Source: a virus. Taken from it: a stretch of 27,741 bases of DNA. The DNA lies in the IMG/VR virus record IMGVR_UViG_3300025430_000092, positions 1-27,741 of that record. One strand, written 5' to 3'. The notes below the pieces were generated by a model. It saw only the letters and a list, made by a program, of their open reading frames with translations, searched no databases and was not told the origin of the DNA. The translations under genes and the position numbers were made by a program. Below, piece by piece: positions 10,621-16,466 of the stretch (positions are counted from its first letter, which is position 1; every line of letters begins with the position of its first letter).

Positions 10621-10651
10621 TTGCGAAGTCCTAAAAACTTTCGATGTGCCG

Positions 10652-10681
10652 AGTATATAATACTTTTGAGTAATCGCGCAA
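10652..10681 (-). promoter_or_regulatory. Candidate late promoter for the packaging/virion operon
   Basis: On the minus strand, TTGCGC (10681-10676) lies 18 bases before TATACT (10657-10652), followed after about 30 bases by the small-terminase start. The -10 matches at 5 of 6 positions and the -35 only at 3. The overlapping plus-strand hexamer TATAAT (10656-10661) makes the -10 region symmetrical. Late phage promoters often need a phage factor, which would fit the poor -35. Confidence 0.35.
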
Positions 10682-10715
10682 GCGTTTGCTTCTCCTTGAT
10701 CTTCGGATCACTTTT

Positions 10716-10742
10716 ACCCCAGCTAGTCTGGGGTATTTTTTT
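10716..10742 (+). terminator. Terminator-like hairpin in the divergent region
   Basis: Stem ACCCCAG / CTGGGGT with a CTAGT loop is followed by A and seven T residues, a textbook intrinsic terminator for plus-strand transcription. A UUCG hairpin sits five bases upstream. No gene ends here on the plus strand, so it terminates a short leader or small RNA, or stops stray plus-strand transcription. Its arm is shared with the later hairpins at 11445, 12621, 13868 and 14573. Confidence 0.7.
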
Positions 10743-11093
10743 GGAATTTTTTAAAAAATTTTTGGGTTAGGTACTTAAGTATTACAGAATATTGATTTGC
10801 GCCTCACAAACAGTGTTGTCGCGGAGGGTGGCATGGTCACCATGAAAGGGGCTCTGGGGGTACGGTGGGGTTGACGGATACGGCAAAATACGCCGAAAAC
10901 GCCGTTTTCTGGGGTAAAACGTACCTCAAAGCCCTAGCAAAGCCCTTGATATAGATTACACCAAGGATAGAAAAAACCCTTTAAAATCAACGACTTAGCT
11001 CATGTCAAGGGTATTTGGTAGCACGTTGGGATACAATAGAGTCATCGGTTTAAGGAGTCATTCAGTCTCTACCGATTCATTTGGAGGTCAACT

Positions 11094-11453
11094 ATGACTA
11101 AAGCAACTACATCTATCTCTACTATCTTTGATCGTGCATTTGATAATCAAGCCGAGCTGTTCGCCCTACTCGGCGAGCATGGTATTACCACTAAGGAGGA
11201 AGCAAAGCCCCATGCTATCAAGTGGGCGGAGGGTCGTTTCAACGTACAAGCCCATGAGGGACAACGCGGAGGGATGACATTCGAGAAGGACACGCCCGCC
11301 TATAACGCTGTGAAATACGTCCTTCGTGTAATCTTTGAGCAACCCAAGACTGGCGGTGTTCGTGCCAAGACCGATGAGGTTGCGTTGTTACTCAAGAAAT
11401 TCAATGCGTTGAGTGCATCTGAGCAACGCCGTTTCTTGAAAGCACTGGGGTGA
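11094..11453 (+). CDS. First plus-strand gene, unknown 119-aa protein
   Basis: This is the first gene transcribed rightward from the divergent region, hence probably early. TTTGGAGGTC lies before the ATG. The 119-aa product has Thr/Ser residues at its N-terminus, then alternating helices (TTKEEAKPHAIKWAEGRF, YNAVKYVLRVIFEQ, VALLLKKFNALSASEQRRFL) and a basic, Gly-containing middle (AHEGQRGGMTFEKDTPA). It looks like a small soluble, possibly nucleic-acid-binding protein but has no motif I recognise. Its last codons (CTG GGG TGA) form the left arm of the following hairpin. Confidence 0.7.
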   Translation: MTKATTSISTIFDRAFDNQAELFALLGEHGITTKEEAKPHAIKWAEGRFNVQAHEGQRGGMTFEKDTPAYNAVKYVLRVIFEQPKTGGVRAKTDEVALLLKKFNALSASEQRRFLKALG

Positions 11454-11471
11454 AAATTAACCCGAGTTTTT
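11445..11471 (+). terminator. Hairpin overlapping the stop codon of the first early gene
   Basis: CTGGGGT and ACCCGAG pair with one mismatch around an 8-nt loop, followed by TTTTTC. The left arm includes the stop codon of the 119-aa gene. A second hairpin follows at 11479-11503 (GCGCAAGG / CTTTGCGC, 9-nt loop) and ends in TGTTCCTTTTATTG. About 34 bases then remain before the next ATG, with no promoter-like pair in them. Confidence 0.6.
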
Positions 11472-11536
11472 CCCGAGGGCGCAAGGGCGAGGTGTCTTTG
11501 CGCTGTTCCTTTTATTGTCAACCAGGAGAATCAACC

Positions 11537-11794
11537 ATGAACAATCTAAAAATCAACCTAGAACATACTGACACATACGGCGGTGAAGCGAACTATTCTT
11601 GGGTACGCCGAGAATCCCGAGTGCTCCCTGCAACTAAGGACGGAAAGCCGAGATCTGATCGGTCTATCGTTCAGATAGCTAAAAAGTGGGCGAACCTCAC
11701 GGGCGTAACGTGCCGAGTCGATGTGTACGGTGACATGCTCGCAATCTATCCACGTGGTATTGCCCACGTTGTATTCGTAACCTTTGGAGAATAA
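11537..11794 (+). CDS. Unknown small protein, 85 aa
   Basis: The start at 11537 is chosen over upstream codons because AGGAG lies seven bases before it and the upstream part of the frame is hairpin sequence. The 85-aa product starts MNNLKINLEHTDTYGGEAN and ends with beta-strand-like CRVDVYGDMLAIYPRGIAHV. A GGEANYSWVRRE patch (residues 15-26) recalls a widespread uncharacterised phage protein type beginning with ...YGGEANY.W. The next gene begins 2 bases after its stop. The function is unknown. Confidence 0.75.
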   Translation: MNNLKINLEHTDTYGGEANYSWVRRESRVLPATKDGKPRSDRSIVQIAKKWANLTGVTCRVDVYGDMLAIYPRGIAHVVFVTFGE

Positions 11795-11796
11795 CC

Positions 11797-12027
11797 ATGA
11801 AAGCAACCGTCAAACGCTTCAATCGAGGCGAGTATTTCGTCATCTTTAAAACACCATCACACCCCATTGGAGCCGTAGGTTTTAAACTGTACGGCTTTGA
11901 CAAACATTGGGTGTTGTTCAACCACTTAAACACCGAAATTAATTGTTGGACATCCAAGAAAAGCATGGTCGAATACTTAGAGAGTAAGACCGAGACCCAG
12001 TTACTAGAACTTAGCATTGCGAGATAA
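11797..12027 (+). CDS. Unknown small protein, 76 aa
   Basis: The 76-aa soluble product (MKATVKRFNRGEYFVIFKTP...) has a beta-rich first half and a helical C-terminus (SMVEYLESKTETQLLELSIA). TTTGGAGAATAACC provides the RBS inside the end of the previous gene. No family is recognised. It belongs to a string of tightly spaced small early genes. Confidence 0.7.
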   Translation: MKATVKRFNRGEYFVIFKTPSHPIGAVGFKLYGFDKHWVLFNHLNTEINCWTSKKSMVEYLESKTETQLLELSIAR

Positions 12028-12029
12028 CC

Positions 12030-12107
12030 TTGAAAACTTTCTTTATAACCACCGCCATCTACATTGTGGGCGGGCTAATCTTAATCGCAACTTACTACAA
12101 ACTTTAA
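12030..12107 (+). CDS. Possible 25-aa membrane peptide, TTG start
   Basis: A TTG two bases after the previous stop opens a frame reading MKTFFITTAIYIVGGLILIA and five more residues before TAA. Residues 4-20 are strongly hydrophobic and would span a membrane once. The RBS is weak (GAG six bases upstream), so expression would rely on coupling with the preceding gene. AAGGAG for the next gene begins at its stop codon. Tiny membrane peptides are common in phage early regions; the call rests on hydrophobicity and fit between neighbours only. Confidence 0.45.
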   Translation: MKTFFITTAIYIVGGLILIATYYKL

Positions 12108-12116
12108 GGAGTGAAC

Positions 12117-12260
12117 ATGCTTGAAATTACCCGATACATACCAGAGCTAGATACCACGCTAGTAACCGTTGTGCCTATGCCGAGCGGAGATGTTACCGAA
12201 TATCTACTGCACCGCTACGGTATTGACGCACTTACCTACATCGTAACCAGAACAATCTAA
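12117..12260 (+). CDS. Unknown 47-aa protein
   Basis: AAGGAG followed by TGAAC precedes the ATG. The 47-aa product (MLEITRYIPELDTTLVTVVP...) is beta-like and soluble, ending YIVTRTI. It has no recognisable motif. It sits with 9-10 base gaps between the putative membrane peptide and the next small gene, in the same apparent operon. Confidence 0.6.
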   Translation: MLEITRYIPELDTTLVTVVPMPSGDVTEYLLHRYGIDALTYIVTRTI

Positions 12261-12270
12261 GGAGATCATC

Positions 12271-12438
12271 ATGAGCAAATCATACACAATCAAAGACCGT
12301 ACATGGGCACGCAAAGCCAAAGAGACTATCCGCAACAAAGCCGAGACTCGGCGTGAAATCAGAGAGCGCATACAAGATGAGGACTTCAAGACTATCATGC
12401 GTAACAATGGCGTACTACCAATCAAAGGGAGCAGATAA
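12271..12438 (+). CDS. Unknown 55-aa very basic helical protein
   Basis: GGAGATCATC precedes the ATG. The 55-aa product is rich in Arg and Lys (RTWARKAKETIRNKAETRRE) and helical through about residue 45. Such charge suggests nucleic-acid or ribosome association, but there is no defined domain. Its stop is one base before the next ATG. Confidence 0.6.
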   Translation: MSKSYTIKDRTWARKAKETIRNKAETRREIRERIQDEDFKTIMRNNGVLPIKGSR

Positions 12439-12439
12439 C

Positions 12440-12607
12440 ATGAGTGCACCTGAATGGTTCAGCAAAGCCGTAGCCCTACGGCAACAACAATACCTAGAAA
12501 CTCTCACACCATATGCAAGGGAACAATACCTCAAAGCATGGCGAGAACGTATAGAGGAGACGGCTCGCCGTCAAACACTACGACAAGGGCAAAAGCCCTT
12601 GTTCTGA
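12440..12607 (+). CDS. Unknown 55-aa protein
   Basis: The start at 12440 (MSAPEWFSKAVALRQQQYLE) is preferred over an in-frame upstream ATG because GGGAGC lies in front and the upstream codons overlap the previous gene completely. The 55-aa product is one or two helices with many Gln/Arg (LKAWRERIEETARRQ). It is followed by a perfect 10-bp stem-loop at 12621-12644. No family is recognised. Confidence 0.6.
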   Translation: MSAPEWFSKAVALRQQQYLETLTPYAREQYLKAWRERIEETARRQTLRQGQKPLF

Positions 12608-12620
12608 AGGCACTTCAACG

Positions 12621-12644
12621 ACTGGGGTTACATTTAACCCCAGT
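12621..12644 (+). repeat. Perfect 10-bp stem-loop of the CTGGGGT hairpin family
   Basis: ACTGGGGTTA and TAACCCCAGT pair perfectly around a CATT loop. Unlike its relatives at 11445, 13868 and 14573 it is followed by TCTCCC rather than a U-tract, so it is a weak terminator at best. It may instead act as an mRNA-stabilising or processing hairpin, or as a DNA-level operator dyad. Confidence 0.7.
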
Positions 12645-12689
12645 TCTCCCAAACACGTTGCCAAATAGTCATTGGACAGCTTACCCACC

Positions 12690-12788
12690 ATGCTTATCAT
12701 GCGTAAAAACTACCGTGTCGCTCAGAACCCGCATGAATACTGGCGGTGTCCAGAACTAAACACACTATATAATAATAATAGAGATTAG
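12690..12788 (+). CDS. Possible 32-aa peptide
   Basis: A frame starting MLIMRKNYRVAQNPHEYWRC and ending at TAG in the AT-rich tract looks protein-like in composition, but it lacks a ribosome binding site. It could be the tail of a decayed gene or a chance frame. It is listed because the rest of 12608-13009 is otherwise empty. Confidence 0.25.
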   Translation: MLIMRKNYRVAQNPHEYWRCPELNTLYNNNRD

Positions 12789-13009
12789 ATATATATATAT
12801 ATGGGCGTGCATAAGTGGACACACCCTCGAAAGCTCGGCTTCGGCTACCCCCCCTTCACTTTATTTTTTTCGGGCTTAAAACGAACTTAACTTGGCGCAA
12901 GGCTAGTGTTTACGGGGCATACGACAAGCACAGTAGAATCCCTAGTTGCGACAAGTGTCGGACACAGTTATAATTTCGTGTACTTAACAATTAAATTTAG
13001 GAGCGTATT
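12789..13009. other. Non-coding stretch with AT repeat, hairpins and promoter
   Basis: The stretch opens with an (AT)7 run (12789-12802) that continues an AT-only-like tract from about 12762. It is followed by an imperfect hairpin GGGCGTG / CACACCC (12803-12826), a small hairpin CGAAAGC / GCTTCG, a C7 run and a T7 run. The promoter at 12946-12974 lies near its right end. I see no credible gene. The AT tract next to hairpins could be an unwinding element or merely a leader. Confidence 0.55.
12946..12974 (+). promoter_or_regulatory. Sigma70-type promoter with palindromic operator in the spacer
   Basis: TTGCGA (12946-12951) and a perfect TATAAT (12969-12974) are separated by exactly 17 bases. 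The spacer contains a perfect dyad GTGTCGGACAC (12955-12965), where a repressor would block polymerase. A related half-site GTGGACAC occurs at 12815-12822. Transcription would start near 12981 and read into the TTG-started zinc-finger-like gene. This is the best promoter in the window. Confidence 0.7.
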
Positions 13010-13654
13010 TTGTCAAACGATACCCACCTCACACACAAGACCTGCGCCAAGTGTGCGCTAAGCAAACCAATTAAAAGTTATAAATATAAGCTGACCTATG
13101 CACAGACAATAGCACGAGGGCACATCGGTAATTACCGCCTTGATGCGGTATCTAAATACTGTCACGAGTGCAGACCCAAACCAAAGCCATTGATAAAAAA
13201 ATCTTACCGTCAGATTGAGGAGATGGTGATTGACGGGGCGATTAAACCCGCGATAGCAGAGGCACATTTGCGCTATCGCGCCGAGCGTAAAAAGCAAAGG
13301 CTCTCACGTGTGCGTAAGAAAACATGGAACAAACTGTTCGCCCAAAGATGGGGCGAACTACTCAAACCCGTACGTGCCGAGATTAGAAAGCTAAACACTA
13401 CGCTAAAAAGAATATCTAACCGCCCGCATTTAACTGAGTATTGCATAACGTGTTTAGCAATACTTGAAGATGTCAGGGACACGATGGCGTATCGTAAGGA
13501 TGAGGGGGATAGGGATATACCCTATGAGGACTGGCGAGAGGCGTTCAGTCAGACCCATTTGCGATCTATGCGAGACGCATGGGTTGCAGTACCACAGAGT
13601 GAGCGAGGGTTTATTAGTGTTAACGAAATTTTAAAGGGGAAACTAAATGGCTAA
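13010..13654 (+). CDS. Putative zinc-binding, basic protein, 214 aa (TTG start)
   Basis: The start is TTG at 13010 with TTAGGAG seven bases upstream; no ATG gives a better fit. Two Cys pairs, C12-x2-C15 (TCAKCALSKP) and C51-x2-C54 (YCHECRPKP), form a likely zinc ribbon of the type seen at the N-terminus of phage HNH or recruitment proteins. Next comes a very basic helical segment (RYRAERKKQRLSRVRKKTWN) and a C-terminal helical part with CITCLAILED. No HNH catalytic triad is seen. A role as DNA- or RNA-binding regulator is inferred. It is the first gene behind the operator-bearing promoter. Confidence 0.65.
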   Translation: MSNDTHLTHKTCAKCALSKPIKSYKYKLTYAQTIARGHIGNYRLDAVSKYCHECRPKPKPLIKKSYRQIEEMVIDGAIKPAIAEAHLRYRAERKKQRLSRVRKKTWNKLFAQRWGELLKPVRAEIRKLNTTLKRISNRPHLTEYCITCLAILEDVRDTMAYRKDEGDRDIPYEDWREAFSQTHLRSMRDAWVAVPQSERGFISVNEILKGKLNG

Positions 13655-13862
13655 AGCTAAATCATTAAACATTACGGAGCGTTTACATAACGACATCTAC
13701 GCCTATGCGGTGATGCACAACCTGAAGATAAAGCAAGTGACAGAGATGGCGTTTGCTCAACTCTTTGGGAATTGGGAACGCCCGAACTACAAAGCAAACA
13801 ATAAACCCAAGCGGTATGTCATGGATCAAACGCCAGACAACACGCCTTGGACAGATCTGTGA
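13647..13862 (+). CDS. Small ribbon-helix-helix-like protein, 71 aa
   Basis: Residues 4-40 (AKSLNITERLHNDIYAYAVM, then HNLKIKQVTEMAFAQLFG) match the ribbon-helix-helix pattern: a short strand, helix A, a turn and helix B. This suggests a dimeric DNA-binding protein. The tail is basic and Pro/Asn-rich. The gene overlaps the zinc-protein gene by 8 bases and has AAGGGGAAA as RBS. It is a plausible candidate for the factor that binds one of the palindromes nearby, but that is only inference. Confidence 0.55.
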   Translation: MAKAKSLNITERLHNDIYAYAVMHNLKIKQVTEMAFAQLFGNWERPNYKANNKPKRYVMDQTPDNTPWTDL

Positions 13863-13867
13863 TAGTA

Positions 13868-13896
13868 ACTGGGGTTAATCGTAACCCCACTTTTTT
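13868..13896 (+). terminator. Terminator-like hairpin immediately before a gene RBS
   Basis: ACTGGGGTTA and TAACCCCACT pair with one mismatch around an ATCG loop and are followed directly by a T run to 13896. AAAGGAG for the next gene begins at 13897, so no promoter can fit between. The downstream genes can be expressed only if polymerase reads through. Confidence 0.7.
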
Positions 13897-13909
13897 AAAG
13901 GAGAAAGCA

Positions 13910-14263
13910 ATGAGTGATACATGGGAAAGAGTGCACCACGAAAAATGTGGGCAGTTTGATATTTACTTTTCGTGGACGTATGAGAACGATTCGCTTCGTG
14001 ACCATTACCCCGATGACTCGGATGACCAAATAAAGGAGATAGCAACCAAGATCAACCGAGGGGAGATGACGTGGTTCGTGGCTAAAGTGGAGGCGCACAA
14101 GTGTGGTATTGAACTTGCCTATGAGATTATCGGTGGCTGTCTGTACGCTGATCCCCTAGATTTTGTGAAGGACAACGATTACTACGCTGACCTAAAGGAA
14201 AACGTGATCGAGGAAGCGAGTGTTAAGTTAGTAGAACTATTTACCTATAAGGAGGATGTATGA
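13910..14263 (+). CDS. Unknown acidic protein, 117 aa
   Basis: The start at 13910 is chosen for the AAAGGAGAAAGCA sequence in front; an in-frame upstream codon would run through the hairpin. The product (MSDTWERVHHEKCGQFDIYF...) is acidic and mixed alpha/beta, with DHYPDDSDDQIKEIATKINR and a Cys/Gly patch HKCGIELAYEIIGGCLY. It resembles uncharacterised early proteins of similar phages. No catalytic motif is seen. Its stop overlaps the next start (ATGA). Confidence 0.75.
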   Translation: MSDTWERVHHEKCGQFDIYFSWTYENDSLRDHYPDDSDDQIKEIATKINRGEMTWFVAKVEAHKCGIELAYEIIGGCLYADPLDFVKDNDYYADLKENVIEEASVKLVELFTYKEDV

Positions 14264-14424
14264 ATATTGATTTAAGAATTATTTGGAAAGCGTTGGAGTG
14301 TTATCGGGAGGACTGCATACCCGAGGAAGAAGAAAACCCTGCGTATGACCAAGAGTGGAAAGACATATGTGAACAGATGGATAACATCAAGTCACTAATA
14401 AAAACCAAAGGAGAAACTAAATGA
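14260..14424 (+). CDS. Unknown 54-aa acidic protein
   Basis: AAGGAGGATGT precedes an ATG that overlaps the previous stop. The product begins MNIDLRIIWKALECYREDCI and contains EEEENPAYDQEWKDI, reading as a helical, acidic small protein. Its end overlaps the next gene's start by 4 bases. No family is recognised, but the RBS and the two couplings make it a convincing gene. Confidence 0.7.
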   Translation: MNIDLRIIWKALECYREDCIPEEEENPAYDQEWKDICEQMDNIKSLIKTKGETK

Positions 14425-14522
14425 ACCCATTTAAAGAACGTATCTTGCATGCGCTAGTCAACCTAGCGTTTGCCATTATTTTTGTCGTTACATTTTTTGT
14501 ATGGGTATGGACTCGTCTCTGA
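14421..14522 (+). CDS. Single-span membrane peptide, 33 aa
   Basis: The ATG overlaps the stop of the 54-aa gene and has AAAGGAGAAACTAA in front. The 33-aa product has a short basic start (MNPFKERILHALVN) and then a hydrophobic segment of about 20 residues (LAFAIIFVVTFFVWVW) ending TRL. It would be a one-pass inner-membrane peptide. A strong terminator follows 20 bases later. The function is unknown; such peptides in other phages affect host membrane functions or exclude superinfection. Confidence 0.65.
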   Translation: MNPFKERILHALVNLAFAIIFVVTFFVWVWTRL

Positions 14523-14541
14523 CGGGTGTCAGCTTTTTGTG

Positions 14542-14570
14542 GCGTGGGGGGATTTCCCCTACGCTTTTTT
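14542..14570 (+). terminator. Strong Rho-independent terminator
   Basis: A 9-bp stem (GCGTGGGGG / CCCCTACGC, one G-T pair) with a GATTT loop is followed by six T residues. It ends the unit containing the zinc-protein, RHH-like and membrane-peptide genes. A CTGGGGT-family hairpin follows just 2 bases later. Confidence 0.85.
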
Positions 14571-14572
14571 AA

Positions 14573-14598
14573 CTGGGGTGAAAATTAACCCCGCTTTT
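14573..14598 (+). terminator. CTGGGGT-family hairpin in front of the 137-aa gene
   Basis: TGGGGT pairs with ACCCCG around a GAAAATTA loop and is followed by CTTTTC. The block ACTGGGGTGAAAATTAACCC is also present at 11444-11463, so this is a true repeat. The next RBS (AGGAG) starts at once, leaving no space for a promoter. Confidence 0.6.
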
Positions 14599-16393: not shown

Positions 16394-16432
16394 TTGACAA
16401 GTTGTAAAAGGATTGACAATCCATGATATACT
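16394..16432 (+). promoter_or_regulatory. Promoter region of the MoxR/VWA operon
   Basis: TGATATACT (16424-16432) is an extended -10 with a 5 of 6 match. There is no consensus -35 at 17 bases; TTGTAA lies 19 bases upstream. Two TTGACA copies (16394-16399 and 16413-16418) lie 19 bases apart, the second inside a dyad GGATT-gac-AATCC (16410-16422). That dyad could be an operator. Transcription would start near 16439, just before a 20-bp palindrome. Confidence 0.5.
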
Positions 16433-16446
16433 AGAGTTCCCTTAGC

Positions 16447-16466
16447 GGTGGCACATATGTGCCACC
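16447..16466 (+). promoter_or_regulatory. Perfect 20-bp palindrome in the MoxR leader
   Basis: GGTGGCACAT is followed directly by its reverse complement. In DNA it is a perfect operator-like dyad; in RNA it gives an 8-bp GGTGGCAC / GTGCCACC stem with an ATAT loop near the predicted 5' end. It is followed by ATTCATTATCTTTATAGGAG, a poor terminator tail, so operator or 5'-end stabiliser are more likely roles. Confidence 0.7.

Follow-up and report, generated by a model that had tools for sequence, protein, structure and literature searches.

The window analysed here is a stretch of 27,741 nucleotides (positions 1 to 27,741 of IMG/VR virus record IMGVR_UViG_3300025430_000092). Structural genes, among them the terminase and a protein of portal size, are located on the minus strand, and the early genes, which include a MoxR-like ATPase and a VWA protein, are located on the plus strand. 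Short hairpins of one arm sequence lie between the early genes. The protein proposed here to read them is encoded by G1, the first early gene. The phage group is a freshwater group found in more than 100 IMG/VR contigs. The nearest database phages to the terminase of the window are HTVC027P (a Pelagibacter phage), DSL-LC04 and Pag-Yong1 (a Planktothrix phage), which are only about 50% identical, and the early block gave no match at the nucleotide level in the phage collection. The features of the early block are listed in Table 1.

Table 1. Features of the early block, in window coordinates.
Feature	Position	Strand	Remarks
Terminator-like hairpin TACCCCAG..CTGGGGTA with T7	10715..10735	+	ordinary rho-independent type; outside the family
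Candidate -10 TACAAT, TTGGGA before it	11032..11037	+	candidate early-block promoter, judged from sequence only
G1	11094..11453	+	first early gene, 119 amino acids; proposed palindrome reader
G1 residues 65, 66 and 74	codons about 11286-11291 and 11313-11315	+	track the arm
Site B, CTGGGGTGAAAATTAACCCGAG	11445..11466	+	overlaps the G1 stop codon; one arm mismatch; followed by TTTTT
Site C, CTGGGGTTACATTTAACCCCAG	12622..12643	+	perfect dyad upstream of the Zn214 gene; no U-tract (TTCTCC)
Sigma70-like promoter, TTGCGA-17-TATAAT	12946..12974	+	before Zn214; consensus match only
Zn214	13010..13654	+	CxxC..CxxC early protein; considered as reader and rejected
Site D, CTGGGGTTAATCGTAACCCCAC	13869..13890	+	directly after the 71-residue gene behind Zn214; T6 tract, then Shine-Dalgarno
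Site E, CTGGGGTGAAAATTAACCCCGC	14573..14594	+	TTTT; directly before the Shine-Dalgarno of gene 14612
Candidate -10 TATACT	16427..16432	+	before the ATPase gene; position F starts 14 nt downstream
Position F, GGTGGCACATATGTGCCACC	16447..16466	+	perfect 20-bp palindrome of another arm sequence, downstream of promoter-like sequence

The window contains 8 copies of the motif CTGGGGT, where 1.8 would be expected, and none of 100 dinucleotide shuffles contained 8 or more. Four hairpins with this left arm, at 11445, 12622, 13869 and 14573, constitute the family, and their RNA folding z scores are -2.2, -5.4, -2.7 and -1.8, respectively. Rfam gave no match. In the preliminary description of this DNA, five hairpins of the same arm were assigned to the early block. 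These four are retained, and the hairpin at 10715 is excluded, because its arms occur in the opposite order (ACCCCAG first) and because its apparent counterparts in relatives (L061 at 2398, L078 at 2776) are terminators, and their arms do not resemble the arm repeated in the respective genome. The description was accurate in giving four of the five hairpins a U-tract (TTTTT at 11445, TTTTTT at 13869, TTTT at 14573 and TTTTTTT at 10715, with none at 12622). It was also accurate in placing the next Shine-Dalgarno within a few bases of the T-run at 13869 and 14573; thus, no room is left for a promoter between them. A common repeated signal, limited to the early block and placed suitably for controlling transcription into the next gene, was likewise found. 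In the close relative L088, site B is a perfect stem (CTCGGGT..ACCCGAG). L088 and the other close relatives L012 and L014 keep the family, and their extra TGGGGT copy before the ATPase gene corresponds to position F. The palindrome of the window at position F is possibly a recombination relic. The GGTGGCACA arms were searched in other phages, and single copies only were found.

Relatives were collected as 80 viral contigs from a scan with the ATPase (numbered with the prefix L), and three further scans with G1 profiles supplied new contigs as an out-of-sample set. Copies were counted in those contigs that extend sufficiently far upstream of the ATPase gene. When the early block is complete, almost all relatives carry 3-8 copies of one palindrome in it, whereas dinucleotide shuffles of the relatives gave 1-2 copies and never more than 2. 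Fourteen arms were found: CTGGGGT, ATGGACA, GCGGACA, GCAGACA, GCTGACA, ACAGACA, ACTGACA, AGTATCA, CAGGTGC, GTGAGAC, GGGAACA, GTGGGAC, TGTGGAG and TGTGGTC. L069, L078 and L081 appeared to be negative until the GC filter was dropped, and they carry the less GC-rich arm AGTATCA; L013 showed no clear repeated arm, also after the filter was dropped. According to pattern searches of contigs of 45-66 kb, the sites are present in the early block only, and essentially only in the group using that arm. A dyad in gene f2, GCGGACACCGATGTCCGC, was rejected as a site, since it is also present in genomes with other arms. In related genomes the palindrome is kept at the same junctions, but its arm sequence differs between genomes.

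The sites occupy six positions. Position A is within or before G1, position B is 0-26 nt past the G1 stop, and position C is before the Zn214 gene. Position D is usually 2-16 nt past Zn214, and in the window it is past the 71-residue gene behind Zn214. Position E is mostly 20-57 nt ahead of gene f9 (14612 in the window), and position F in relatives is before f5, f2 or the ATPase gene. Within one genome all copies change in concert, including those inside coding DNA. According to the alignment of the sites, a core of about 20 bp is exchanged, and the flanks are conserved and not homogenised. Copy A in G1 overlies an 'AD..SA' protein motif, and its synonymous codons match the arm in several groups (GCG GAC..TCC GC, GCA GAC..TCT GC and GCT GAC..TCA GC), which is a sign of selection on the DNA palindrome itself. 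The sites are dyads with short centres, and the loops vary within one genome. Lone sites with the arm of another group, as recombination would leave, are present at 4886 of L060 and just after 9941 of L031. L060, of which the arm is GCGGAC, has one GCTGAC site before f5, probably a relic.

Among the protein families, G1 similarity tracks the arm best when ATPase similarity is allowed for (partial r 0.58; the next family, 0.31). G1 proteins have three N-terminal types, and a C-terminal motif is shared by type I, type III and part of type II. The type corresponds to the form of the site: type III is found with the 18-bp TGTGG sites, type II with GTGAGAC, GGGAAC and GTGGGA, and type I with the rest. 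Two pairs of near-relatives are natural swaps. In L060 and L062, identity is 97-99% for the ATPase, f3 and f5 and falls to 38% for G1; their arms are GCGGAC and GCTGAC. The ATPases of L035 and L063 are 94% identical, whereas their G1 proteins can be aligned in the C-terminal third only, and the arms are TGTGGAG and GCGGAC.

Within type I, once overall identity is accounted for, the arm is followed most closely by a set of columns that includes window residues 66, 74, 65 and 71, which lie at the start of a predicted helix (68-81). Residue 66 was found in the first set and then checked on the contigs from the new scans. In these contigs it is Asp in 31 of 32 genomes with GCGGAC, Asn in all three with GCTGAC or ACTGAC, and Gly in all 17 with GCAGAC. 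Residue 74 is Tyr in the three GCTGAC/ACTGAC genomes with Asn66. Residue 65 is nearly always Arg when the first arm base is G (His in L067 and L161), and it is Gln, Thr or Tyr when that base is A. These correspondences suggest that part of a code between residues and bases is already readable.

G1 gave no match to Pfam, PHROG or PDB families. The AlphaFold2 model of G1 has a predicted local distance difference test (pLDDT) score of 80.7, and the models of types I and III agree in their succession of elements: three helices, a β-hairpin, a helix and two C-terminal helices. A winged-helix fold is possible according to these models. MarR-type matches (MexR, MftR) were weak and below the noise, and they were not used.

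The hairpins are probably, in DNA, dyad-symmetric sites of G1 (half-site CTGGGGTTA), and G1 would be an early autoregulator acting on dispersed, stoperator-like operators. G1 would be made first, from the early promoter, where relatives carry homologous TGTGGTATACT-type elements. It may then bind as a dimer at the sites that follow this promoter and at those separating the early genes. The bound protein would reduce or shut down expression of the early block, and with it that of G1, through a block of initiation and a roadblock to elongation. From the sequences we infer the binding by G1, DNA rather than RNA as the target, the dimeric state and repression. Repression is proposed because most of the sites are located downstream of promoters or between genes, where an activator could hardly act.

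Several observations weigh against this reading. Position A is within G1 and position B is beside it; thus, part of the tracking between G1 and the arm could be linkage. No significant Foldseek match in the PDB was obtained for the G1 models (best E values 1.9 for type I and 0.16 for type III), so that a DNA-binding fold is at most putative. L120 has Asn66 with GCGGAC, and L008 (ATGGAC) falls outside a one-to-one code between residues and bases. A tree was built without the tracking columns, and only well-supported branches were counted; the three supported independent pairs for residue 66 are all concordant, too few to be significant by the sign test (p 0.25). The independent events of arm change are few, because many of the contigs are close relatives. 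The spacer differs by one base within a genome, which is unusual for the site of a rigid dimer. In L035 and L039, one site is located upstream of the promoter, a position from which activation is conceivable as well. Runs of four or more T within 11 nt downstream are commoner on the sense strand (62 of the 227 distinct copies, 27%) than on the opposite strand (13 of 227).

The last observation favours another explanation, in which the hairpins are leaky intrinsic terminators, possibly with antitermination, and recombination keeps the arms alike. U-tracts are present at three of the four family members in the window. However, 73% of the copies have no T-run, the cores change in concert within flanks that are conserved and not homogenised, the arm tracks residues of a protein, and copies are present inside coding DNA. 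A GC-rich stem directly before a U-tract, as expected of an intrinsic terminator, is found for single copies such as 13869 and not for the family. We regard this explanation as quite improbable. The preliminary description had proposed termination and antitermination at the RNA level, and as a general rule this is not supported, given the small share of copies with a T-run and the copies in coding sequence. The arm, which switches by genome at kept junctions, the freely varying loops and the variable half positions, which show no covariation, speak against it as well. Particular copies (after G1, and 13869 and 14573 in the window group) may possibly act as terminators. Alternatively, the hairpin could be bound in the mRNA, next to the Shine-Dalgarno, by G1 or a different phage protein, which would thereby control translation or RNA stability. 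Only a few bases separate the end of many sites from a Shine-Dalgarno, as in Pag-Yong1, the hairpins fold well as RNA, and one-base changes of the spacer are easy in a loop. The flanking positions argue otherwise. In the case of GCGGACA, the first flanking position forms Watson-Crick pairs in 32 of 124 sites against 47.6 expected if the halves were independent, and in the case of GCAGACA in 12 of 37 against 18.3. In the small set of GCTGACA sites (n = 17), pairing is above expectation at the second and third flanking positions. The variable half positions vary independently, paired less than by chance, and DNA half-sites are favoured over an RNA stem. Within the arms, A.C mismatches (25) exceed G.T mismatches (6), although many of them come from one coding copy. 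The stems are fixed and the loops are free, and copies are present in genes and upstream of promoters. Binding to RNA is thus unlikely, and the evidence argues for pairs of DNA half-sites, some copies of which are perhaps also terminators.

The sites could also be read by another linked phage protein, with G1 merely linked. Zn214 is early, bears CxxC motifs and is flanked by sites C and D. It was rejected as the reader, because it is about 26% identical between the window and L012 despite the shared CTGGGGT arm, while G1 is 95% identical; the partial r of Zn214 with the arm is 0.20. We give a reader of this kind very little weight. Dispersed palindromes are also used by ParB/parS-like systems, and accordingly the sites might function in DNA maintenance (partition, replication or packaging) or in recombination instead of gene control. 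Gene content changes at the sites, as between the window and L088 after site D. The sites are, however, limited to the early operon, at gene junctions and near promoters, and such a role seems most improbable.

In Cluster A mycobacteriophages (L5, Bxb1), stoperators are many short intergenic sites, most of them not associated with promoters, and their genome-specific motif varies with the repressor (PMC6550527). They are 13-bp asymmetric sites, mostly in one orientation, bound by the monomeric two-domain immunity repressor of temperate phages (PMC9283540, PMC6550527). The sites described here are similarly short, repeated and dispersed in intergenic intervals, and their sequence is genome-specific and varies with the inferred reader. 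However, they are symmetric dyads with short variable centres, and the protein proposed to read them is small, early and without a match in the libraries. Because of the symmetric sites and of a reader that, within the tests made, is unrelated, the system is not classed as a stoperator system. Integrase families PF00589 and PF00239 were not found in 11 contigs, some of them incomplete, and no ATPase relatives were found among genome contigs; a role in lysogeny is therefore doubtful. The SAS/ESAS of Cluster K mycobacteriophages are repeats and inverted repeats at gene starts (PMC3203893), and the sites here are positioned likewise. SAS/ESAS consist of a fixed 13-bp GGGATAGGAGCCC and 17-bp repeats of variable spacer and have no known reader, whereas the motif here differs from GGGATAGGAGCCC, switches by genome and tracks a candidate reader. 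Phage-specific hairpins of the early operon are also known as boxB of the lambda N/nut system and put of HK022, and the present hairpins resemble them in this respect. In boxB a stem and a defined loop are read at one or two sites, whereas here the loops vary, the stems are fixed and 3-8 copies are dispersed. In the T4-type PeSL promoter/stem-loop cassettes, stem-loops are repeated between early genes; unlike these, most sites here have no promoter, and their sequence changes in concert with a protein. No paper describing the site/G1 system turned up in the literature searched, of which coverage was partial.

In the 50 kb examined, the cultured phage Pag-Yong1 carries 20 GGTTCA..TGAACC dyads, of which nearly all have a centre of 3 nt. 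Many of them are 4 nt from the end of one gene and about 22 nt from the start of the next. The first early gene ends in the C-terminal motif of G1 (hhalign E 4e-8, 32 columns), and its protein is also present in two further records. HTVC027P, DSL-LC04 and 023Pt_psg01 showed no repeated dyad within the 50 kb looked at. Pag-Yong1 is a cultured phage in which the proposed site/G1 system can be studied. An unexplained hairpin repeat becomes a testable regulator-operator system, and the natural swaps suggest pairs of residues and bases. Tentatively, the group may hold at least 14 operator specificities, each matched by the first early protein, with a readable code between residues and bases in a previously undescribed protein family; the system might serve superinfection control, giving heteroimmunity without lysogeny. 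If G1 reads the sites as proposed, the combination of dispersed, genome-specific operators and a reader that varies with them, which temperate mycobacteriophages are known to have, would occur also with symmetric sites and an apparently unrelated early protein.

Other structures were observed near the sites and the early genes. Second GC-rich hairpins adjoin site E (14541-14565, with a T-run) and site B (11478-11504), and the one after site B is conserved in relatives. In the G1 leader of relatives (e.g. L061 2646-2725, L069, L081 and L013), the early transcript presumably starts close to a conserved hairpin, and downstream of this hairpin come a GC-rich one and a T-run abutting the G1 Shine-Dalgarno, with some compensatory changes. 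This leader, which the window group lacks, resembles an attenuator or a put-like leader. Zn214 is only about 26% identical between the window and L012 while the neighbouring conserved genes are more than 90% identical, which reflects either very fast change or replacement. A stretch between divergent genes (window 10640-10742, plus strand) is conserved also in L088 and L012, and it contains a GATCUUCGGAUC hairpin followed by the 10715 terminator. A short transcript from this stretch is possible; Rfam gave no match for it. Near the start of the early block, on the minus strand of L012 (4542-4619) and L014 (1034-1111), ARAGORN detected transfer RNA-like genes with a four-base anticodon (catc).

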